Source: Streptomyces sp. A3M-1-3 (lineage in GTDB: Bacteria > Actinomycetota > Actinomycetes > Streptomycetales > Streptomycetaceae). From it: 64,000 bases of DNA. The stretch covers positions 1-64,000 of the forward strand of contig NZ_JANAVP010000012.1 in NCBI RefSeq assembly GCF_024213665.1, given 5' to 3'. The notes below the pieces were generated by a model. That model ran no database searches. It worked only from the letters and a program-made list of their open reading frames with translations, and had not been told where the DNA came from. Positions 3,031 through 42,147 of this stretch are shown in pieces; position 1 is the stretch's first letter, and each line of letters begins with the position of its first letter. Both the position numbers and the translations under genes were made by a program.

Positions 3031-5433
3031 GTGACCAGTACGAGGAGAGCGATCAAGGCTGCCGCCGTGGTGGTCACCATGGCCGCGTGCGCCGCCACGG
3101 CGTCCACGTTCGCCACGGCACAGGCCGACGACAAGGCACCGGGAGCCGCCGCGGTTGACCGCCACGACCCGGCTGCCGTGAAGAAGGGGCACGTCGAGCA
3201 CGATCTCGAAGGCCCCTTCAGCAAGCAGCAGGAGGAGCAGCGCGAAGCCGCGCTCGAGCAGGTCCTCGCGGGCGACCTGAAGGTGGAGAAGCGCGGCGCG
3301 TCCCAGGTGGTCAGGCTGGACGACCGCAAGTACGTCGAGCTCGGCCGCGAGAAGACCGACAAGATCTTCACGATCCTGGTGGAGTTCGGCGACAAGGTCG
3401 ACGACACCACGATGTTCGACCCGGACGGCCCCGACGGCCCCAAGCCGCCGGCGAAGAAGTACGGCGGCGAGCCCGGCCCGCTGCGCAACCAGATAGCCCA
3501 GCCCGACCGTGCCAAGGACAACAGCACGGCCTGGCAGAAGGACTACAACCGCGAGCACTTCCAGGAGCTCTACTTCGGTACGGGCAAGGGCAAGCACTCG
3601 CTCAAGACGTACTACGAGAAGACCTCCGCGGGCCGCTACTCGGTCGACGGTGAAGTCTCCGACTGGGTCAGGGTCGACTACAACGAGGCCCGTTACGGCT
3701 CCAACTACTGCGGCCAGTCCAACTGCGCCAACGTGTGGGACACCGTCCGCGACGGTGTGACCGCCTGGGCCGCGGCGCAGAAGGCGGCCGGCAAGACCGA
3801 CGCCCAGATCAAGGCGCAGCTCGCCGCGTACGACCAGTGGGACCGCTACGACTTCGACGCCGACGGCAACTTCAACGAGTCCGACGGCTACATCGACCAC
3901 TTCCAGATCGTGCACGCCGGCGAGGACGAGTCCGCGGGCGGCGGCGCCCAGGCCACCAACGCCCTGTGGGCGCACCGCTGGTACGCGTACGGCACCAACG
4001 CGGGCAAGACCGGCCCCGCGAACAACAAGGCCGGCGGCACCCAGATCGGCGAGACCGGCATCTGGGTCGGCGACTACACCATGCAGCCCGAGAACGGCGG
4101 CCTCGGTGTCTTCGCCCATGAGTACGGCCACGACCTCGGTCTGCCGGACCTCTACGACACCACCGGCGGCGCCGAGAACTCGGTCGGCTTCTGGTCCCTG
4201 ATGTCGGCGGGCTCCTGGCTCGGCACCGGCAAGGACTCCATCGGCGACCTGCCCGGCGACATGACCGCGTGGGACAAGCTCCAGCTGGGCTGGCTCGACT
4301 ACGACAAGGCCAAGGCCGCGACGAAGTCGACCCACAAGCTGGGCGTCTCCGCGTACAACACCAAGAACAAGCAGGCGCTCGTCGTCGAGCTGCCGAAGAA
4401 GCCGGTCACCACGACTGTCGTGAAGCCCGTCGAGGGCTCCAAGCAGTGGTGGAGCGACATGGGTGACGACCTCAAGAACACCCTCACCCGGTCCGTCGAC
4501 CTCACCGGCAAGTCCAAGGCCTCCCTGGAGCTTCAGGGCTGGTACGACATCGAGGCCGAGTACGACTACCTGTACACCGAGGTCTCCACCGACGGCGGCG
4601 CCAACTGGACGGCCGTCGACGGCACGGCCGACGGCAAGGCGCTCCCGCGCGACGCCGCCGACAACCCGGCCCTGACCGATGTCTCGGGCGCCTGGAAGAA
4701 GCTCGTCTACCCGCTGGACGCCTACGCGGGCAACAAGGTCGACGTCCGCTTCCGCTACCAGACGGACGGCGGCGCGGGCGGCAAGGGCTTCACCGCCGAC
4801 GCCATCACCGTCACCGCCGACGGCTCGCCGCTCTTCACGGACGGCGCCGAGGGCGACGACGACGGCTGGACCGCGAAGGGCTTCTCGCGTATCGGTGAGT
4901 CCTTCACGCAGGAGTACCCGCAGTACTACCTGGCCGAGAACCGTCAGTACGTGTCGTACGACAAGACGCTGAAGGTCGGCCCGTACAACTTCGGGTTCGC
5001 CCCCGCCCGTCCCGACTGGGTCGAGCACTACCCGTACCAGAACGGCCTGATGGTCTGGCTGTGGGACACCTCCCAGAAGGACAACAACGTCAGCGCCCAC
5101 CCGGGACACGGCCTGGTCCTGCCGGTCGACGCGCACGCCAAGCCGCTGAAGTGGGCGGACGGCACGCTGATGCGCAACAAGATCCAGCCCTTCGACGCGC
5201 CGTTCGGCCGGTACGCCACGGACAGCTTCACGCTGCACAGCGCCGGCCGGCCGGTGCGGGTGAAGGCGCAGAAGGGCAACCCGGTCTTCGACGACCGCAA
5301 GGGGACGTACTGGTACGCGGAGAACCCGACCGGAAGCGTTCAGGTTCCTGACACCAACACCCGGATCGTGATCGTCAAGGAGCCCAAGAGCGGCCAGACG
5401 ATCACTGTGAAGGTCGGTCCGTCGACCAAATAG
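3031..5433 (+). CDS. Secreted M6 family metalloprotease (immune inhibitor A-like)
   Basis: 800 aa. The GTG at 3031 follows a strong GGGAGGGG site and opens a signal peptide (basic TRRAIK, then a hydrophobic core, cleavage near residue 33 at ATAQA). The zinc-protease motif HEYGHDLGLPD lies at residues 363-373 (H363, E364, H367, D373), matching HExxHxxGxxD of M6 peptidases. The C-terminal half is rich in beta-sandwich-like sequence as in InhA proteins. It is an exported protease, probably for extracellular protein degradation in late growth. Family calls are firm; the natural substrate is unknown. A hairpin that could end transcription follows at 5463-5490. Confidence 0.93.
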   Translation: MTSTRRAIKAAAVVVTMAACAATASTFATAQADDKAPGAAAVDRHDPAAVKKGHVEHDLEGPFSKQQEEQREAALEQVLAGDLKVEKRGASQVVRLDDRKYVELGREKTDKIFTILVEFGDKVDDTTMFDPDGPDGPKPPAKKYGGEPGPLRNQIAQPDRAKDNSTAWQKDYNREHFQELYFGTGKGKHSLKTYYEKTSAGRYSVDGEVSDWVRVDYNEARYGSNYCGQSNCANVWDTVRDGVTAWAAAQKAAGKTDAQIKAQLAAYDQWDRYDFDADGNFNESDGYIDHFQIVHAGEDESAGGGAQATNALWAHRWYAYGTNAGKTGPANNKAGGTQIGETGIWVGDYTMQPENGGLGVFAHEYGHDLGLPDLYDTTGGAENSVGFWSLMSAGSWLGTGKDSIGDLPGDMTAWDKLQLGWLDYDKAKAATKSTHKLGVSAYNTKNKQALVVELPKKPVTTTVVKPVEGSKQWWSDMGDDLKNTLTRSVDLTGKSKASLELQGWYDIEAEYDYLYTEVSTDGGANWTAVDGTADGKALPRDAADNPALTDVSGAWKKLVYPLDAYAGNKVDVRFRYQTDGGAGGKGFTADAITVTADGSPLFTDGAEGDDDGWTAKGFSRIGESFTQEYPQYYLAENRQYVSYDKTLKVGPYNFGFAPARPDWVEHYPYQNGLMVWLWDTSQKDNNVSAHPGHGLVLPVDAHAKPLKWADGTLMRNKIQPFDAPFGRYATDSFTLHSAGRPVRVKAQKGNPVFDDRKGTYWYAENPTGSVQVPDTNTRIVIVKEPKSGQTITVKVGPSTK

Positions 5434-5462
5434 TTCGTAACATCGCAGGTCAGCGCATGATC

Positions 5463-5490
5463 GGCCGTCGCCCTCTAGCGGGCGGCGGCC
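5463..5490 (+). terminator. Hairpin terminator after the M6 protease gene
   Basis: A GGCCGTCGCC stem pairs with GGCGGCGGCC across a short loop (one G-U pair), 30 bp past the stop codon. There is no T-run, which is common for terminators in high-GC actinomycetes. Confidence 0.55.
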
Positions 5491-5569
5491 GTTCGCGTTT
5501 AGATGCGTCCTACGAACTGCTTATTGACAGCAAGTCGACAGTGGCGTCTCACGGGGGAGCTGGACGGTC

Positions 5570-5896
5570 ATGGCCGGTGGAGGTTTCAGCAAGCTGCCGA
5601 ACGGCAGAGTGGTGGTCGCGCTCACGCTTCCGCGGCCCACGTACGACGGCGGGACCTCCGGCCCGGACGGCGACGGACCGGTGCGCGTCCTGGTCCACGC
5701 GGCCAACCGCGCCCGCGCCCTGACCCGGCTGCGCAATCTGGGCCTGCGCGCGGTCTACCTCCGCGGCAACGCGGAACCGCCCACCCCGGACGAGGTCACG
5801 GCGGTCCTGCACCACCCGGACGGCCTGCTCTGGCGGGGCGCCCCGCAGGACGCGGAAGAACTCTGGCACCCGATACGAGCACTGCTCCGCAGCTGA
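5570..5896 (+). CDS. Conserved hypothetical protein, 108 aa
   Basis: 108 aa, soluble, no signal or membrane segment. It starts at an ATG preceded by GGGGGAG. The middle reads like a small alpha/beta domain (VRVLVHAANRARALTRLRNLGLRAVYLRG) and the C-terminus is helical. No catalytic motif is visible and I cannot assign a family. Coding bias is strong (third-position G/C), which supports expression. Confidence 0.65.
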   Translation: MAGGGFSKLPNGRVVVALTLPRPTYDGGTSGPDGDGPVRVLVHAANRARALTRLRNLGLRAVYLRGNAEPPTPDEVTAVLHHPDGLLWRGAPQDAEELWHPIRALLRS

Positions 5897-5978
5897 CCTC
5901 TCACCCGCACGGGTGGCCCTGGTGGCGTGGCCGCGGATGAGGCCGCTTGCTGGTACGGGGGGAGAAAGCGAGCGGTCC

Positions 5979-6629
5979 ATGGCGTCGAACGAGCAGCGCC
6001 TGCAGACCCCCCGGGCGGCAGGGGTGGTGGGGATCGCCTTCGCGCTGTTGACCACGGCTGCGATCGTGCTGGTCCGGGTGGCGCTGCCCGAAGGGGCGGA
6101 GGCCGACACGTCCCGCGACCCCTCGCAACAGGAGGCGCTGCGCACGGCGCTCGGACTCGTACCGTTCGCCGGCATCTTCTTCCTCTGGTTCATGGGCGCG
6201 CTGCGCTCGCAGGCCGGTGAGCGGGAGGACAGGTTCATCGCCACCGTGTTCCTGGGCAGCGGCCTGCTCTTCGTGGCCACACTCTTCGGGGCCGCCGCAG
6301 CCGCCGGCAGTGTGCTGGACACTGCCGGGGCGGGTACGGGGCAGCCGCCCGGGGGCTTCGGGGAGCACTTCGCGTACACCCTGATGACGACCTACTCGAT
6401 GCGGATGGCCGCCGTATTCGCCTTCACGACCTCGGCCATCGGGCACCGCCTCGGCTTCTTTCCGCGCCCGCTCACCGTTCTGGGCTACCTCGTCGGCCTG
6501 ACACTGCTCTTCCTCGGGCCGAGCATTCCCTGGTCCGAACTGGTCTTTCCGTGCTGGTCCCTGATCGTGAGCGTTCACATTCTCCGGGCGGGCTTCCGGT
6601 CCCGCCCGAGCCCCCTCGGTGTCACATGA
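5979..6629 (+). CDS. Multi-pass membrane protein, hypothetical
   Basis: 216 aa starting at ATG 5979 behind GGGGGGAG. About five hydrophobic segments are visible: residues about 14-35, 60-75, 90-110, 140-155 and 165-200, with short loops. No catalytic or transporter signature is seen. It precedes the ferredoxin/P450 operon by about 100 bp in the same orientation but uses a separate ribosome binding site, so a functional link is uncertain. Confidence 0.75.
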   Translation: MASNEQRLQTPRAAGVVGIAFALLTTAAIVLVRVALPEGAEADTSRDPSQQEALRTALGLVPFAGIFFLWFMGALRSQAGEREDRFIATVFLGSGLLFVATLFGAAAAAGSVLDTAGAGTGQPPGGFGEHFAYTLMTTYSMRMAAVFAFTTSAIGHRLGFFPRPLTVLGYLVGLTLLFLGPSIPWSELVFPCWSLIVSVHILRAGFRSRPSPLGVT

Positions 6630-33619: not shown

Positions 33620-34324
33620 TCAGGTGTACGCGTCCGCGCCGGTGACCTGCGTATGGTCGCCGGCTGCCGCGTACGAGGTCTGGCGGGCCCGCGGGTGGTA
33701 CGTGACGGGGCCGGCCGGGGCCGCCGACCGCGGCGCGTAGGTGCTGACCAGTACATCGGCGTCGGCCGGTACGGGCAGGCGGGCGGCGTCGCTGGTGATC
33801 TCGCCACCCGCCGGGATGGTGACACCGGGGGAGCCGCCGAAGGTGAGCGGGTGCAGGGTGCCGGGCGCGGCGGCGGGTCTTTTGCGGGGGTCGGGGGCGG
33901 CGGCCAGGGCGATCGAGGCGTGGCCGATACGCAGCGGGCGTACGCCGAAGAGGTTCGAGAGGGTGACCCGGACGCGGCTGCCGCCGATGCTGGTGTGGAT
34001 GACGTTGCGGAACGTACGCCCGGCGTGGCCCGCGCCGTTCGTTCCCGCGCCGTTCGTTCCCGTGCCGTGCGTTCCCGTGCCGTGCGTTCCCGTGCCGTGC
34101 GTTCCCGTGCCGTGCGTCCCCGACTCCGCGGCGGCGGGGGACGCGGACCAGGTGCCGACCCAGAGGGCGCGCGGGTGGGCGGCGGGGCGGTCCTGGCTGC
34201 CCGAGGCGCCGGAGACGCCCATGAACACGCCGGCGGAGACGAGAGCGGCCACGAGCAGCAGCGTGGCGAGCACGACACTGCCTCGGCGCGAGCGCGAGTG
34301 CGTGCTCATGCGGTGCTGGGTCAT
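33620..34324 (-). pseudogene. Truncated SGNH/GDSL hydrolase, N-terminal part only
   Basis: About 234 aa. A basic start and membrane segment (VVLATLLLVAALVSAGVFMG) act as signal anchor. The conserved N-terminal jelly-roll part of secreted GDSL esterases follows: LWVGTWSASP, FRNVIHTSIGGSRVRVTLSN, PLTFGGSPGVTIPAGGEITSD and DVLVSTYAP. The frame ends at 33620 before the catalytic GDS-I-T block and the rest of the hydrolase, roughly half the usual length. A GTHGT repeat interrupts it. No ribosome binding site is evident. A C-terminal deletion is the simplest explanation. Confidence 0.75.
34032..34121. repeat. 15-bp tandem repeat inside truncated hydrolase
   Basis: Six units of GTGCCGTGCGTTCCC or close variants. 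On the minus strand they encode repeated GTHGT/GTNGA pentapeptides. Confidence 0.9.
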
Positions 34325-36543: not shown

Positions 36544-37080
36544 GTGATCTGCTACGGACCGACCGTCCTGGATCTGGCCGACGAGCTGGTCGAGGCGTAC
36601 ACCGAAGTCTTCTCCGCGCCCCCGTGGAACGAGAACGAAGAAACCATTCGCCACTTCGCCGCCCGCCTCCAGACGGACGCCCGGCGCCCCGGCTTCCGTA
36701 CCGCGCTCGCCCAGTCCACGTCCGGCGTCGACGGATTCGCGACGGCCTGGCTGACCAAGGACCCCTTCCCGGCCGATCGCGCGTACGACAAGGTCGCGGC
36801 CCAACTCGGCCCGCAGCGCACCAAGGAGCTCCTCCTCGGCGCCCTGGAGGTCGACGAACTGGCCGTCCGCCGGCACGCCCGCGCCCAGGGCACGGGCCGC
36901 GGCCTCCTCGCGGAACTGACGGCGGACGCACCCGACGCCCGCGCCTGGCTGCTGACGGCGCGCAAGGCGAGGAAGACGGTGGCGACCTACCGCCGCCTTG
37001 GCTGGCACGAGGTGCTCCCGCTCCCCGGCACGGAGAACGAGGTCATCGTCTTCCTCGCGCCGCACCACCCGTCGGCGTAG
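36544..37080 (+). CDS. GNAT family acetyltransferase
   Basis: 178 aa. GTG 36544 follows GAGGAG. The GNAT core is seen in LEVDELAVRRHARAQGTGRGLLAELT (acetyl-CoA loop: Q/RxxGxG/A) and KTVATYRRLGWHEVLPLPG. N-terminal EVFSAPPWNEN is typical of this subgroup. Acceptor substrate unknown. The 3' end of this gene is present again in decayed form at 41040-41135, on the other side of the peptide-modification operon. Confidence 0.88.
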   Translation: MICYGPTVLDLADELVEAYTEVFSAPPWNENEETIRHFAARLQTDARRPGFRTALAQSTSGVDGFATAWLTKDPFPADRAYDKVAAQLGPQRTKELLLGALEVDELAVRRHARAQGTGRGLLAELTADAPDARAWLLTARKARKTVATYRRLGWHEVLPLPGTENEVIVFLAPHHPSA

Positions 37081-37090
37081 CTGTTCCTCG

Positions 37091-37150
37091 GCGTCAACGC
37101 AGCTTGTCCGAAGCGGTGTTGACGCGATCCGAATCCGTGACTGATTATCA
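37091..37150 (+). promoter_or_regulatory. Inverted repeat and promoter of the peptide-modification operon
   Basis: GCGTCAAC (37091-37098) and GTTGACGC (37118-37125) form 8-bp perfect arms. The right arm contains TTGACG, and GATTAT follows 18 bp later, giving a plausible sigma-70-type promoter with the dyad over the -35. The dyad could instead be the terminator of the GNAT gene. Confidence 0.55.
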
Positions 37151-37201
37151 CGCGAGGTACGTCAAGGAGAGTTGAGCGCCATGAGGTCAAAGGAGAGCTC
37201 T

Positions 37202-37315
37202 ATGAGTGGAACGGCCAAGACCGGCAGCACGACTCCGCGCAGCGCCACAACGATCAAGATCCGGCGCCTCGACAGGAAAGAGACCACGGGCGACAGCAAC
37301 TCAACCGGTTCCTGA
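37202..37315 (+). CDS. Short peptide, candidate RiPP precursor
   Basis: 37 aa from ATG 37202 behind AAAGGAGAG; an in-frame ATG at 37181, itself behind AAGGAGA, would give 44 aa. The peptide is Thr/Ser-rich, with a basic middle (IKIRRLDRKE) and a C-terminus TTGDSNSTGS. There is no cysteine and no hydrophobic segment. It sits 13 bp before an M14 peptidase gene that is chained by 4-bp overlaps to ThiF-like and M50 genes. A short Ser/Thr-rich peptide at the head of such an operon is what a RiPP precursor looks like: IKIRRLD would be the leader recognition part and the tail the core. This is inference; expression is not shown. Confidence 0.65.
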   Translation: MSGTAKTGSTTPRSATTIKIRRLDRKETTGDSNSTGS

Positions 37316-37328
37316 AGAACGGACCACA

Positions 37329-38669
37329 GTGTTCTGTCGCTACCCCACTGTCGATGAACTGACCGCCCGTGCAGCGGCCCTGGCACAGGCGCACCCGGAC
37401 CGGACGGTCCTGCGCCGGATCGGCTCCTCCCGCGCGGGGGAGCCGATTCAGCTGCTCTCCATGGGGCGGGGGAGCAGGCATGTTCTGGTGGTCGCCGGGC
37501 CGCACGCCAATGAACCGGTCGGCGGCGCGACCGCGTTGCGGCTGGCACAGCACATCGCCCGGGCCGCCCGAGCGGCCGGCCCGACCGACACGACGTGGCA
37601 CTTCCTGCTCTGCCTCGATCCCGACGGCGCCCGCCGCAACGAACGCTGGCTCCGCGGCCCGATGACCCTGTCCCACCACTACCGGCACTTCTTCCGCCCC
37701 GGCTTCGCCGGACAGCCCGAGTGGCTGCCCGCGGACCCCGGGGCGGAACTGTCCCCGGAGACCCGCGCCCTGCTCGATCTGCAGGACGAACTGCGGCCCA
37801 TGCTGCAGTGCTCGCTGCACGGCGTGGACGTGGGCGGCAGCTTCGTCCAGACCACCCGAAGCCTGCCGGGCCTCCCCGACCACCTCGCCCGGTCCGCGGC
37901 GGACCTCAGGATTCCGCTCGAGCTCGGACCGTACGACGCCTTCTTCTGGCCCAGCCCCGGGCCCGGGGTCTACCAGATGCCGCAGCCCCGGGAGACCGAC
38001 CAGTTCGCTTCACTCCCCGCGGCGACCGCCACCTCCACCTGGTTCCATCCCGATCGCTACGGCACGGTCACCGCGGTGATCGAAGCGCCGATGTGGGGCG
38101 CCGACGAGGTGGCAATCACCGCTGCGCACCCCGACGTCCACGGCGCCCTGGAGACCATCAGCCATACGCTCCGCCGGGACGCACAGCTGCTGGCCGGCCT
38201 GCTCGAGCGGGTGCGCCCCGTTCTCCCCGACACGGCCGGCCCGGTGCTGGCGCCGATCGACGAGTACCTCGCGGTGTGCCCCAGCCTCGCGGACGAGTGG
38301 GCTCCGGCGGCGGCTCTCGGCGAGACCGGCGGCCTGCCGCCGCTGAACCGGGCGCGGATCATGGCGCTCCGGATCGCCGCACGCCGACTGATCGTGCGCA
38401 CGGCGGGGCTGCTGCACCAGCTGGTCGCCGCCGGGAGTGAGCCCGTCCACGAGGTCCGGGCCACTCTGGAGAGGTTCCTCACCCAGCGGTGCGACGCGTT
38501 CGAGGCCGACTGCGGGGCCCGCTGGATCCCGGTCAGTGACCAGGCGGAGCACCAGTTCAGGGTCGTACTGGCCGCATTCCGGCTGGCCGCCCAGTCGGCG
38601 GATCAGCATTCCGGAAGCGACGCCGCACTGGACGGGCGGCTCAGGGAGCCGGGGAGGGTGCGGGGGTGA
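37329..38669 (+). CDS. M14 family zinc carboxypeptidase
   Basis: 446 aa from GTG 37329. The M14 zinc motif is AGPHANEPVGG (H59, E62) with the third ligand H164 in CSLHGVD, and a likely catalytic glutamate E252 in AVIEAPMWG. LLCLDPDGARRNERW is also typical. There is no signal peptide, so it should act in the cytoplasm. In its operon context it may trim the C-terminus of the short peptide, but this is inferred. The C-terminal 150 residues are helical and not needed for the M14 fold. It overlaps the ThiF-like gene by 4 bp. Confidence 0.88.
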   Translation: MFCRYPTVDELTARAAALAQAHPDRTVLRRIGSSRAGEPIQLLSMGRGSRHVLVVAGPHANEPVGGATALRLAQHIARAARAAGPTDTTWHFLLCLDPDGARRNERWLRGPMTLSHHYRHFFRPGFAGQPEWLPADPGAELSPETRALLDLQDELRPMLQCSLHGVDVGGSFVQTTRSLPGLPDHLARSAADLRIPLELGPYDAFFWPSPGPGVYQMPQPRETDQFASLPAATATSTWFHPDRYGTVTAVIEAPMWGADEVAITAAHPDVHGALETISHTLRRDAQLLAGLLERVRPVLPDTAGPVLAPIDEYLAVCPSLADEWAPAAALGETGGLPPLNRARIMALRIAARRLIVRTAGLLHQLVAAGSEPVHEVRATLERFLTQRCDAFEADCGARWIPVSDQAEHQFRVVLAAFRLAAQSADQHSGSDAALDGRLREPGRVRG

Positions 38670-39811
38670 GGCGAGCCGGGGACCAGGTCTCTGTAGCCGG
38701 GCTGCTGCGGCCACGGGTGAAGCCCGAACACCGGGCGTACCGGACCGTGGACGGCAACGTCCGGATCGGGAGCGTGGTCTACGGAATCGGGGCCGAGGTC
38801 GCCGACCCCGACGGCTGGATCTGGACACTCACCGAGGCACTCGACGGCACCCGCACCCCGGACGGGACGGTCGACAACGTGCTCGCCCGTCATCCGGACG
38901 TCGGGTACCGGTCTGTGCTGGAGGCGATGGACGATCTGTACGAGGCCGGATTTCTGGACGACGCCGGGGCGGCGCTGCCGGACGGGCTCACCGAGGACGA
39001 CCGCACACGCTACGGTCGCGGGGCTGACCTGCTGCGCTGGATGGACTTATCACCACGCGCGACGAGCTGGGAACTGCAGGCACGGCTGCGATCGGCCCGG
39101 GTGCTGCTGCTCGGACTCGGTGGCACCGGCGGTTTCGCAGCTCAGGGGCTGGTCGCGTCGGGCGTGGGCTTGATGCACTGTGTGGACGGCGATGTCGTGG
39201 AGCTGTCCAATCTCAACCGGCAGCCCCTCTACCGCGAGACCGACATCGGCAGACCCAAGGCGGAAGCCGCCCGAGCGGCCCTGCGGGCGCTCAACTCGCA
39301 GGTGACGGTAACCGCCGAACGTCGCGAAGTACACGGACCCGACGACCTCGCCGCGCTTCTTGTGCCCGGCTATGACCTCCTGTTGCTCTGCGCCGACCGG
39401 CCGCCCGAAATCCGCCGCTGGGCGAACCGCACCTGTCTCGCGGCGCGGCTTCCCTGGCTCGATGCCGGCTACCGCGGCCCATTGGTCACGGTCGGGGTCC
39501 ATGTTCCCGGCAGCGGGGCGTGCTGGGAGTGCCACCGTGCCGACGACGCCGACCGGCGCGATCTCCGCCTCGGTCCCGGTCAGGACGCGGAAGTCGCGTC
39601 GCCCCGGATGGACTGGAATCCGGTCAACGCGGTGACGGCGGGGCTCTCCGGCACCTTGCTGGTTCACGCGGCGATCGCGCTGCTCACGGGCGTGCCGGAG
39701 ATACGGCCCGGATTCCGCTTCGGTCTCAACCTGATGGCGTTCGCCGAACCGGCGGAAGAACGGTACGGCCGCCGCGCGAACTGTCCAGCCTGCGGGACGC
39801 CGCCGGCGTGA
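38666..39811 (+). CDS. ThiF/E1-like adenylyltransferase with N-terminal recognition-like domain
   Basis: 381 aa from GTG 38666 (GTGA overlap). Residues 1-100 resemble the small winged-helix domains that bind RiPP leader peptides in TOMM-type ThiF proteins (LRPRVKP, VVYGIGAEVADPDGWIWTLTEALDG). The E1 domain has the ATP loop GLGGTGG (150-156), LNRQ with R185, and K198. Two CxxC pairs (C286/C289, C373/C376) can hold the structural zinc. It should adenylate a carboxylate, plausibly the C-terminus or an acidic residue of the peptide. Cysteine 242 in LLLCADRPP is in the usual substrate region. Confidence 0.87.
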   Translation: MRRAGDQVSVAGLLRPRVKPEHRAYRTVDGNVRIGSVVYGIGAEVADPDGWIWTLTEALDGTRTPDGTVDNVLARHPDVGYRSVLEAMDDLYEAGFLDDAGAALPDGLTEDDRTRYGRGADLLRWMDLSPRATSWELQARLRSARVLLLGLGGTGGFAAQGLVASGVGLMHCVDGDVVELSNLNRQPLYRETDIGRPKAEAARAALRALNSQVTVTAERREVHGPDDLAALLVPGYDLLLLCADRPPEIRRWANRTCLAARLPWLDAGYRGPLVTVGVHVPGSGACWECHRADDADRRDLRLGPGQDAEVASPRMDWNPVNAVTAGLSGTLLVHAAIALLTGVPEIRPGFRFGLNLMAFAEPAEERYGRRANCPACGTPPA

Positions 39812-41016
39812 AGACTGTGCGCCTGTACCCGCTTGCCCGTAGGCCGGACGGTGACGAATGGATCGTCGGGCGGGTGGACACCGGCGATTTCGTGGCCCTG
39901 CCGTGGACGGGCGCCAGAGCCGTCGAACTGCTGGATAAGAGAATGAGCCCGGACGATGTCGCCCGACAACTGCGCGCCGAGACGGGAGAGGACGTCGATG
40001 TCGTCCAGTTCGTCGAGGAGCTGACGGCACTGGGATACGTGGCCGAGATCGACGGCTGCCCGGTGGCGTCGCCGAAACCGCGGCGAGTCACCTGGCCATG
40101 GCTGCGGCCGCACCACATCCGATGGGTACTGAGCCCGCTGACAGCCCTCTCCCTTCTCGCACTTGTCGCCGCGGCGGTGGGTGTTCTGGTCCGTGACCCC
40201 GGCCTGTTTCCCGGTTACCGAGCTCTGCTGTGGAGCCCGCACGGAAGCCTGGTGATCGGCTTCGGCGCGGCCGTCGGCTGGGCGCTCATCCTTCTTCACG
40301 AGGCCGCGCATCTGGTGACTGCACGGGCGGCCGGCGTCCCGGCGGGCATCAGCCTCGGCACGCGGCTGCAATTCCTGGTCGCGCAGACAGACATGAGCGG
40401 CATCGAGCTCGCCCCTCGCCGCCACAGGCTGACCGCCTATCTGGCCGGGATCGCCGTCAATCTGGGCGTCGCGTCGAGTGCCCTGCTCGGTCTGGCAGCC
40501 ACCCCGCCCGGCGGCACGCCCCACCGGATGCTGGCTGCGATCGTCCTACTGGCGCTGCTGCCGCTGCCCTTTCAGTGCATGGTGTTCATGCGGACCGATG
40601 TGTACTTCGTGCTTCAGGATCTGACGGGCTGCCGCGATCTGTACGGGGACGGCACGGAGTATGCCTGCTATACGGCCCGACGCCTGCGCTGCGTATTCCT
40701 GCGCGGGAGACCAGCACCGGCCGATCCGAGCCTGCGTCTGCCGGCGCCCGAGCGCCGTGCCGTCCGTCTCTACAGCGCTGTTCTCGTCGTCGGCACCGCG
40801 CTGTGCCTGACTGTCCTCGCCGTCGTCACACTCCCGGCGGATCTCGCTCTGCTCGCCCGTGCCGCCGGGCGACTCGCGCCAGGGCACTCCTGGACGGAAC
40901 GACTGGAAGCGGCTGCCGTTCTCGCCGCGCTCGGCGGGATCCAGGTGCTGTGGGCCGTCACCTGGTACAGGAGGAGGCGCGGCCGGCGGAAGGACCGGGT
41001 GCGGCGGCAGGTGTGA
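39808..41016 (+). CDS. M50 membrane metalloprotease with PqqD-like N-terminus
   Basis: 402 aa from GTG 39808 (GTGA overlap). Residues 1-85 form a PqqD-like domain (ARAVELLDKRMSPDDVARQLRAETGEDVDVVQFVEELTALGY region). Membrane helices begin near 108. The zinc motif is HEAAH at 164-168, inside a helix, as in site-2 proteases, and the likely third ligand is D264 in MRTDVYFVLQDL. About six helices in total. In RiPP systems similar proteins remove leaders or act in export; here it is the only membrane component of the operon. The product's route out of the cell is not otherwise encoded. Confidence 0.85.
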   Translation: MKTVRLYPLARRPDGDEWIVGRVDTGDFVALPWTGARAVELLDKRMSPDDVARQLRAETGEDVDVVQFVEELTALGYVAEIDGCPVASPKPRRVTWPWLRPHHIRWVLSPLTALSLLALVAAAVGVLVRDPGLFPGYRALLWSPHGSLVIGFGAAVGWALILLHEAAHLVTARAAGVPAGISLGTRLQFLVAQTDMSGIELAPRRHRLTAYLAGIAVNLGVASSALLGLAATPPGGTPHRMLAAIVLLALLPLPFQCMVFMRTDVYFVLQDLTGCRDLYGDGTEYACYTARRLRCVFLRGRPAPADPSLRLPAPERRAVRLYSAVLVVGTALCLTVLAVVTLPADLALLARAAGRLAPGHSWTERLEAAAVLAALGGIQVLWAVTWYRRRRGRRKDRVRRQV

Positions 41017-41039
41017 CCCATCACCGCCCGCACTGTACG

Positions 41040-41135
41040 TATGTATCGCCGCCTCGGCCGGTGGCACCGTTCCCCGGCGCGCAGCGCGAGGTCATCGTCT
41101 CCTTCACACCAAACCACCCGCCGGTGCAAGGGTGA
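41040..41135 (+). pseudogene. Decayed copy of the GNAT gene 3' end
   Basis: The DNA matches the last 95 bp of the GNAT gene ending at 37080 (TATCGCCGCCTCGGC for TACCGCCGCCTTGGC; both share CGAGGTCATCGTCT). Frameshifts split the reading (YRRLG in one frame, REVIVSFTPNHPP in another). It brackets the 3.9-kb peptide-modification operon on the right. Confidence 0.7.
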
Positions 41136-41163
41136 TCGAACTCTCCGCGGGCATCACCGGAAC

Positions 41164-42147
41164 ATGATCGACAGACTCGACCGTCTCGCCCGCAGGCAGC
41201 TCAACCTGGCGACGTACCACCAACTGGCTACCGCCGGTATCCCCTCCGGCACCATCACGGGCCGCGCCCGGCCAGGCGGACCATGGCAACGCCTCCTGCC
41301 ACGCGTCTACTTACTCCAAACCGGCCCACCGACCCGCCACCAACGGGCCCTGTCCGCAGTCCTCTACGCGGCCGCCCCGTCCACGGACCCGCTCGCCGGC
41401 ACGACGGCGGCACTGACCGGCGGCGCTGCCCTGACGCTCCTCGGCGTACGGGGAGCGTCGGCCACGCCGGTGGACGTCCTGGTCAACGCCCCGCGTACGG
41501 TCACGAACAAGGGGTACGTACGCACCCTCAGCACCCGCCGCTGGCCACCCACCATCACCGTCTCGGGCATCCCGAGCACCCGCCCGATCCGCGCCGCGGC
41601 CGACTTCGCGGCCCGCACCGACGACGCGGACACGCTCCGCTCGGTACTGGCGAGCGTCGTCCAGTCGGGCTGGTGCCACCCCGTGGACCTGCACCAGGAA
41701 TTACGGTCGGCCCGGGCCCTTGCCAACCCGGCGGTACGGGACGCGGCGTCGGAACTCCTCGCAGGAGTCCGCTCGATCGCGGAGGGCCAGGCGCGCGACG
41801 CGCTCAGCTCGGCGGCCATCCCGGACCCCCTCTGGAACCCCCGACTATTCACGGTGGAAGGGGAGTTCCTGGCCACACCGGACGGATACTGGCCGGAGGC
41901 AGGGGTCGTACTGGAGATCGACTCGGCTGAGTACCACTACAGCCGCGAGGGCTGGCAGGCCACCCTGCGCCGCCGCCTACGCCTGGAGTCCCACGGCCTC
42001 CTGGTGGTGAGCGCAACCCCAGCGATGGTCCGGGACACGCCGGGGCAGGTGATCGCGGCAATCAGAGCAATGCTGAACCTGGGCCAAGCCCGCCGGGAGC
42101 CTCTACGCCTGGTGGTCCGGGCCCAGTCGCAGGGGCGGTTGTGGTAG
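41164..42147 (+). CDS. AbiEi-like wHTH / DUF559-type nuclease-fold protein
   Basis: 327 aa. The N-terminus (ARRQLNLATYHQLATAGIPSGTITGRARPGGPWQRLLPRVYLL) resembles the AbiEi antitoxin winged helix. The C-terminus (GYWPEAGVVLEIDSAEYHYSREGW) resembles the DUF559/Vsr-like nuclease fold, with a possible D/E...E-x-D site. Such proteins are common, often as solitary genes, in actinobacteria; no AbiEii toxin partner is adjacent. Role unknown; a defence role is possible. Confidence 0.78.
   Translation: MIDRLDRLARRQLNLATYHQLATAGIPSGTITGRARPGGPWQRLLPRVYLLQTGPPTRHQRALSAVLYAAAPSTDPLAGTTAALTGGAALTLLGVRGASATPVDVLVNAPRTVTNKGYVRTLSTRRWPPTITVSGIPSTRPIRAAADFAARTDDADTLRSVLASVVQSGWCHPVDLHQELRSARALANPAVRDAASELLAGVRSIAEGQARDALSSAAIPDPLWNPRLFTVEGEFLATPDGYWPEAGVVLEIDSAEYHYSREGWQATLRRRLRLESHGLLVVSATPAMVRDTPGQVIAAIRAMLNLGQARREPLRLVVRAQSQGRLW

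Follow-up and report, generated by a model that had tools for sequence, protein, structure and literature searches.

The first 64,000 nucleotides of contig NZ_JANAVP010000012.1 of Streptomyces sp. A3M-1-3 (the window) carry, on the forward strand at 37202–41016, an operon of four genes encoding a short peptide, an M14 carboxypeptidase, a ThiF-type (E1-like) adenylyltransferase fused to a recognition element (RRE) for ribosomally synthesized and post-translationally modified peptides (RiPPs), and an M50 membrane protease with a PqqD-like N-terminus (Table 1). The peptide stop codon TGA (37313–37315) lies 13 bp ahead of the GTG start of the M14 gene at 37329, and GTGA overlaps join the M14 gene to the ThiF gene (38666–38669) and the ThiF gene to the M50 gene (39808–39811); the coordinates, gap and overlaps that an earlier note on this DNA had given proved correct on re-reading of the sequence. 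That note had also allowed two peptide lengths, 37 or 44 amino acids, behind a strong Shine-Dalgarno sequence, and both in-frame starts, ATG 37202 and ATG 37181, are possible. The start at 37202 is better supported, because its AAGGAG is better placed, with a spacer of 6 nt, and because the 37-residue form recurs in the closest relative, locus L079 of Streptomyces odonnellii (from the best 80 of 504 matches; its ThiF protein is 82% identical to that of the window), where the peptide frame has no earlier start and stands behind its own AAAAGGAG. A promoter scan of 36900–41300 gave one match, compared with 0.2 ± 0.4 in shuffled sequences.

Table 1. Features of the operon in the window, and large neighbouring genes at related loci (locus handle before the position)
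Feature	Position	Strand	Basis
Weak sigma-70-like promoter match, TTGACG-18-GATTAT	37119–37148	+	consensus match only
Shine-Dalgarno AAGGAG ahead of ATG 37202	37190–37195	+	similar layout in L079
Precursor peptide gene, 37 aa, MSGTAKTGSTTPRSATTIKIRRLDRKETTGDSNSTGS	37202–37315	+	motif peptides in 103/117 ThiF loci
Conserved leader block IKIRRLDRKETT	37253–37288	+	column counts, 86 unique cores
Tail GDSNSTGS, presumed core, Gly at −2	37289–37312	+	
M14 zinc carboxypeptidase, 446 aa	37329–38669	+	Pfam PF00246 1e-12; catalytic residues
RRE-ThiF (E1-like adenylyltransferase), 381 aa	38666–39811	+	profile, model, Foldseek
Predicted RRE (winged helix-turn-helix) of the ThiF protein, about residues 14–100	38705–38965	+	model; PaaA-like_N in relatives
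PqqD-M50 (site-2-protease-like) membrane protease, 402 aa	39808–41016	+	Pfam, invariant residues, model, Foldseek
PqqD/RRE-like N-terminal domain of the M50 protein, residues 1–82	39808–40053	+	weak PF05402 match; relatives; Foldseek
Large NB-ARC or AAA + TPR neighbour	L057 5501–8671		
Large NB-ARC or AAA + TPR neighbour	L060 5173–8580		
Large NB-ARC or AAA + TPR neighbour	L079 6356–9046		
Large NB-ARC or AAA + TPR neighbour	L114 6096–8231		
Large NB-ARC or AAA + TPR neighbour	L134 6056–8902		
Large NB-ARC or AAA + TPR neighbour	L136 6125–8341		
Large NB-ARC or AAA + TPR neighbour	L151 7315–10707		

Relatives were gathered from 394 genomes of the window's family, from plasmid records and from a collection of named genomes, where the best 80 of 504 matches were kept. 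A hidden Markov model (HMM) search for ThiF relatives gave 117 loci, L077 and L078 being far relatives; L062–L066 and L068–L072, which have no ThiF match, were left out of the peptide counts. The 117 loci include duplicates, and the named and unnamed collections overlap; for the tree, four ThiF rows were dropped as duplicates and L077 and L078 were left out. M14 and M50 genes were called within the fetched stretch of each locus, and the stretches of L042, L052, L054, L081, L085, L104, L108, L110, L120, L121, L125, L131 and L147 are cut off by a contig edge. For the relatives, the start codons of the peptides are guesses. Neighbouring genes come from a simple caller that also yields some false antisense open reading frames; they were grouped by single linkage, and a handful of their proteins were run through Pfam.

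A short peptide lies close to the ThiF gene in 111 of the 117 loci. It is of the leader type IxIRxLDKxETT, followed by a short tail rich in Gly, Ser and Asn, in 104 of them: a motif search retrieved 116 such peptides across 103 loci (7 of these peptides, with weak or absent scores, were entered by hand), and L061 has one that the anchor pattern missed. A different type of about 20 residues, read by eye, is found in seven Pseudonocardiaceae loci (L114, L116, L121, L126, L134, L136 and L154), where frames of 20–24 residues (36 in L134 if its listed start is taken) begin about IEF shortly before the ThiF gene. Peptides of this length are, to our knowledge, very short for RiPP precursors; the smallest of the motif type have 24–25 residues. 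The Pseudonocardiaceae type can be written MIEF.E.....TFS.. and lies at about 4870–4990 in L114, L116, L126, L134, L136 and L154, and at 917–979 in L121. No clear peptide was found in six of the 117 loci (L077, L078, L081, which is at a contig end, L115, L124 and L152), and two or three motif peptides occur together in L041, L043, L044, L048, L073, L096, L107, L120, L144, L146 and perhaps L117.

When the strict motif was sought in six frames over the 1,693,351 bases of collected loci, 98 matches fell near ThiF and 2 elsewhere. One of these two is the true L079 peptide, 18 bases beyond the near zone with the M14 gene intervening, and the other lies inside the M50 gene of L105. Since the motif was drawn from the same loci, this control tests location, not discovery. 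Between the window and L079, the peptide genes differ by five synonymous changes over 14.8 sites and by a single non-synonymous change over 45.2 sites. Across 413 dependent pairs of similar peptides, the differences at codon positions 1 to 3 number 825, 511 and 2111, and the pooled ratio of non-synonymous to synonymous differences per site (pN/pS) is 0.22, a value biased by the choice of non-independent pairs at least 80% alike in protein. The comparison of the window with L079 is the better evidence, because that pair was picked by ThiF similarity. The codon-position bias argues for translation of the peptide, and together with the 98:2 control it rules out a chance reading frame. The earlier view of the locus as a RiPP-like operon with a real precursor is thereby upheld, as is its advance expectation of a conserved short frame at this place in relatives.

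The anatomy of the precursor was read from 86 unique cores, numbered from the first Ile of the motif. Leu at position 6, Arg or Lys at position 4, and Ile, Val or Phe at position 3 are present in all 86; position 1 is Ile in 78, position 10 is Glu in 81 (Gln in 3, Gly in 2), position 11 is Thr in 81, and position 7 is neither Asp nor Glu in 7. Tails run to 6–13 residues, and Gly, Ser and Asn supply 439 of their 722 residues; Asn comes last in 28 cores, and the window peptide ends in Ser. By these alignments, the IKIRRLD segment of the window peptide is predicted to be the conserved strand of the leader; ETT and a short tail of Gly, Ser and Asn come after it. Some further regularities were set aside. 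All 86 cores have Thr in at least one of positions 11 and 12, a rule that we do not claim, the absence of both being expected by chance in only about one core; the Lys subclade shows a constant distance between position 15 and the C-terminus, which was discounted, its members sharing ancestry; and a DNA pattern for the leader was too loose in the window's own genome, with 81 matches compared with 87 in a reversed control. None of ten precursors matched an NCBIfam model, and Pfam gave two weak matches far under the cut-off, so that model-based precursor mining would miss the lineage.

The ThiF protein of the window matches the Pfam ThiF model at E 1.3e-43, above the cut-off, and PaaA-like_N at E 0.027, well under it; the latter model matches 21 of 50 aligned ThiF proteins at E 0.01, the best of them at 3.8e-8. 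Searched against the PDB, a profile of 17 ThiF proteins retrieves MccB (2.4e-46) and PaaA (1.4e-45) ahead of MoeB and ThiF, and it aligns to PaaA (5ff5) from profile position 3, so the RRE is included. The AlphaFold2 model, with a predicted local distance difference test score (pLDDT) of 94, has an RRE-like, winged-helix order of strands and three helices in residues 16–99, and Foldseek places MccB structures at the top. The GxGGxG loop with the following Arg, Lys and Asp (G150, G152, G153, G155, R185, K198 and D244), by analogy the residues of the nucleotide site, does not vary among the 50 aligned proteins, nor do the two CxxC pairs, which bears out the ATP loop and two CxxC pairs noted earlier from the window alone. 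Matched by hand, R185, K198 and D244 are taken as the counterparts of R167, K180 and D225 of EnfB (PMC12250964). Profile and predicted structure agree in indicating a protein of the MccB/PaaA type, RRE included. A defence E1 was considered and rejected: 28 PADLOC models match the ThiF core only, and the 25 listed are all E1–E2 models, the best at 9e-15. Low-complexity inserts occur in the middle of the adenylation domain of some ThiF proteins, namely those of L044 (7747–9567, about 215 residues), L041 (8252–9634) and L040 (8206–9555).

The M50 protein matches PqqD (PF05402) at 1.6e-4, with 22.4 bits for a cut-off of 23.4, and the Pfam M50 model at 3.7e-4, again under the cut-off; at E 0.01, PF02163 (M50) is matched by 28 and PqqD by 8 of 34 aligned relatives. 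The HEAAH motif corresponds to H164-E165-x-x-H168, and H164, E165, H168 and D264 are invariant in all 34. The predicted model is helical with a pLDDT of 93.4, and in Foldseek it retrieves the lasso peptide RRE TbiB1 first and the site-2 protease 3b4r fourth, at E-values of only 0.1–0.14. Sequence and model together point to an RRE-like N-terminus joined to a site-2-protease-type active site, HExxH plus a distal Asp. The HEAAH motif and PqqD-like N-terminus reported earlier thus stand, the PqqD match being one bit short of its cut-off, and the check that the earlier note had set in advance, an RRE on the ThiF protein and PqqD on the M50 protein, found support in Pfam, profile alignment and Foldseek. 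An M50 gene is near 79 of the 117 ThiF loci; in 71 it follows ThiF on the same strand at a distance of no more than 150 bp, and in 8 it is otherwise placed. Distant PqqD-M50 proteases with no ThiF match nearby are present in L069, L070 and L072, followed by a protein of about 730–770 residues that is TPR-rich by eye.

The M14 identity of the second gene is confirmed by a Pfam match above the cut-off and by H59, E62, H164 and E252, which are kept in 51 of 51 aligned operon copies, that of the window included; we take these residues to be the HxxE motif, the distal His and the catalytic Glu. A phmmer search of the M14 protein against PDB sequences at E 0.01 gave no match. M14 genes are near 44 of the 117 ThiF loci, on the strand opposite to ThiF in 42 and on the same strand in two (the window and L079), and in seven loci of the Actinacidiphila type the stretch holds a pair of M14 genes and lacks M50. 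With distances measured to the start of the HMM match, 42 of the 43 loci that combine M14 with a motif peptide have M14 beginning 3–141 bp behind the nearest same-strand peptide; the exception is L074. At L201 (about 4922–6262), an orphan peptide with the core IVIRPLDKKETTGDSNSQGA is paired with M14, and there is no ThiF or M50 in the 12-kb stretch, which ties M14 to the peptide; its genome, G381, holds a Lys-tail ThiF system elsewhere. Gly is the penultimate residue (position −2) in 28 of the 30 unique cores with a local M14 and in 21 of the 56 without; the two M14-bearing exceptions are L042, which already ends in Gly, and L074. Within the clade that holds M14, the counts are 28 of 30 with and 7 of 15 without (Fisher 0.0009, with rows taken as independent though they are not). 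The tails thus fit the removal of one residue by M14 to bare a Gly. A complementary rule, that peptides without M14 already end in Gly, looked promising in L054, L055, L061 and L092 and failed in L039, L045, L048, L049, L051 and others. M14 paralogues in L190, L192 and L194, 56–60% identical to that of the window, belong to a recurring gene group that by eye resembles one for glucan or trehalose metabolism.

The counts above for M14 and M50 show that the four parts described together in the earlier note do not form a constant set. The partners (M14, M50, DUF6879 and NB-ARC/TPR proteins) vary by lineage, and the core is therefore the peptide plus the RRE-ThiF protein. This lineage occurs in at least 17 named actinobacterial genera, judged by record titles of the best 80 of 504 matches, and, in a sample of 297 genomes from the family of the window, in 45, among them the genome of the window itself; an M50 relative at E 1e-20 is present in 102 of the 394 family genomes. 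A phylum-wide search gave matches below E 1e-100 only in G000 and G044, and the best match in the other 214 of 216 genomes with one is at E 8.6e-43 or more. The weaker matches, nearly all of which lack the RRE part among those listed, are probably MoeB-like.

Taken together, the operon very likely makes a small modified peptide. On balance we think it probable that it is a pathway of the RRE-ThiF kind whose enzyme adenylates the C-terminal carboxylate of the peptide. The leader strand IKIRRLD and the RRE of the ThiF protein would pair; where a lineage has M14, the carboxypeptidase would remove the last residue (…STG/S), leaving a peptide that ends in Gly; the ThiF protein would then use ATP to adenylate the C-terminal carboxylate; the adenylate would be attacked by a Ser, Thr, Lys or Cys side chain of the tail, or else by a small amine, giving a small C-terminal macrocycle or a conjugate; and the PqqD-M50 protein would bind the same leader at the membrane, cut it off and release the product. 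These steps, their order, the product and its bioactivity are inferred from relatives such as EnfB and IndF. Because no internal acid is invariant among the motif peptides, the C-terminal carboxylate is the only universal one and most simply the one activated.

Several observations weigh against C-terminal activation after M14 trimming. Neither step is general, since M14 and M50 are missing from many loci. The distribution of M14 on the tree is clustered, with 8 changes compared with a shuffled mean of 34, and the link of M14 to the penultimate Gly is for this reason not independent evidence; that Gly also persists in the 7 in-clade tails without a local M14 counted above. M14 copies elsewhere in genomes with an M14-less locus do not line up with the tails: such copies are present in some of the searched genomes (for example G359, G183 and G050), G178 and G298 have them and yet carry tails without Gly at −2, G044, G079, G087 and G367 have none elsewhere, and in G352 there is no more than a weak fragment. 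M14 relatives also occur away from the peptide: no peptide of the motif type is present in 14 of the 15 M14 stretches that were fetched. Finally, the conservation of Glu10 favours a side-chain mechanism: 81 of the 86 cores have this residue, and by eye the Pseudonocardiaceae peptides carry an acidic residue at a comparable position.

In such a mechanism, pantocin- or GRC-like, the Glu of ETT would be adenylated and form a ring with a Ser, Cys or Lys some 4–6 residues on, and the C-terminus would be a mere follower; we regard this as possible, if rather unlikely. Beyond Glu10 itself, it agrees with position 15, which in 69 of the 86 cores is Ser, Lys, Cys or Arg, with the main Pseudonocardiaceae peptides, which by eye have Glu (six) or Asp (L136) at the comparable place, and with known chemistry, GrcB linking Glu35 to Cys39 and PaaA acting on two Glu, Glu16 first (PMC12250964). 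However, the five cores in which Glu is replaced by Gln or Gly belong to peptides that are otherwise normal, and the second short frame of L136 has Gln there by eye.

A microcin C-like outcome, with the peptide joined through its C-terminus to a nucleotide as a Trojan-horse antibiotic, is brought to mind by MccB, which furnishes the closest solved structures, several with MccA, and by the 28 of 86 cores that end in Asn. We nevertheless consider it improbable: the other 58 cores, like the window peptide with its final Ser, have no terminal Asn, and the neighbours include no exporter cluster at a fixed place, an ABC-type ATPase cluster (by eye) being scattered over 15 loci. We hold it similarly improbable that the peptide serves repeatedly as a carrier, in the manner of ThiS or a pearlin scaffold, with a C-terminus that is activated and loaded with sulfur or an amino acid before M50 releases a small molecule. 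The peptide is far shorter than a ThiS fold requires, and no sulfurtransferase or PEARL-like enzyme was noticed among neighbour clusters that are identified in part, even though the tails are Gly-rich, ThiF adenylates the C-terminal glycine of ThiS (PMC12250964), and the M50 proteases TglG and TmoG cleave a modified C-terminal amino acid from a substrate peptide (PMC10885120).

The partners that vary by lineage include large regulators or proteins of the STAND-like kind. In the Lys-tail clade, a gene of one cluster, encoding 923–1168 residues, lies just behind M50 in 8 of 11 loci and starts about 2.3–2.6 kb from the ThiF start; the scanned members (L057, L060 and L151) are BTAD/NB-ARC/TPR regulators. 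Of the 8 Pseudonocardiaceae loci, 7 have a member of this cluster directly behind ThiF, in the opposite orientation; the members scanned there (L114, L134 and L136) encode NB-ARC/TPR proteins, with a PNP_UDP domain in the case of L134. L114 has an additional BTAD/NB-ARC/TPR regulator upstream, and an AAA/TPR protein follows ThiF in L079. No regulator of the NB-ARC/TPR type was seen beside the window operon, where few neighbouring genes were scanned. The NB-ARC/TPR neighbours hint at a signalling role in those two other clades, and the PNP_UDP domain could mean a role in conflict or defence. It is a doubtful but conceivable extension that a peptide of about 24–45 residues follows the logic of a ubiquitin precursor, in which M14 would bare a Gly, the E1-like enzyme adenylate it and the tail close, the ring serving as a signal for the NB-ARC/TPR regulators. 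A gene of the DUF6879 cluster, named after one scanned member, is present in 19 loci (L049, L103–L105, L112, L117, L122, L123, L125, L127–L130, L133, L135, L137, L138, L140 and L143), 15 of them Streptosporangiaceae; it follows ThiF, the peptide or M50, mostly in Streptosporangiaceae without M14. Upstream of the window operon and outside it, 34029–34122 holds a 15-bp tandem repeat of 6.3 copies with 96% matches.

RiPP enzymes of the RRE-ThiF (TLAT) kind are known, namely MccB, PaaA, GrcB, EnfB and IndF, and MccB, EnfB and IndF act at a C-terminus (PMC12250964 and PMC12150305). In the sections of the former source that were covered, the worked examples come from enterobacteria, bacilli, and streptococci or enterococci. 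The words "actino", "M50" and "carboxypeptidase" do not occur in the main texts of PMC12250964 (a review) and PMC12150305 (on IndF), and six versions of the peptide motif were not found in openly licensed PMC papers; the present lineage is apparently undescribed in openly licensed PMC main texts. It offers a small enzyme set and very short precursors, with M14 trimming before E1 activation as a clean biochemical question, and, if the proposal is true, one pathway joins E1 chemistry to unmasking by a carboxypeptidase and to a membrane protease guided by an RRE.

Enterofaecin (EnfA/EnfB) and IND (IndA/IndF) resemble the system in their short precursors, RRE-fused ThiF enzymes and C-terminal reaction, which is here proposed; the EnfA leader has a conserved (V/I)RKA where the present one has I-R-x-L (PMC12250964 and PMC12150305). 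Unlike the present lineage, they belong to Firmicutes, have aromatic C-terminal motifs (WWIVI and NWYFI, compared with the window tail GDSNSTGS) and include transporters and, in IND, an M16 peptidase. Pantocin A is close in that PaaA is the sole solved structure, among the 60 matches listed, that aligns over the RRE too; PaaP, however, has a two-Glu core (PMC12250964), whereas the Glu of ETT is replaced in 5 of 86 cores here, and neither a 2-oxoglutarate oxygenase of the PaaB type nor a PaaC-type exporter is among the three operon enzymes, neighbours having been scanned in part. Microcin C7 is the closest in solved fold and sequence, yet the C-terminal Asn of MccA is the residue on which MccB acts (PMC12150305), and such an end is found here in the minority of cores counted above. 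The GRC thiolactone peptides (GrcA/GrcB) likewise depend on an RRE-ThiF enzyme, which makes a ring (PMC12250964), but they have a precursor Cys and radical SAM partners, whereas the window peptide has no Cys and its three operon enzymes include no radical SAM protein. As for the last step, the M50 proteases EpeP, TglG and TmoG of RiPP clusters are membrane proteins that act on a RiPP precursor (PMC10885120), as is predicted here, and the window M50 protein differs from them in bearing its own PqqD/RRE-like N-terminal domain.

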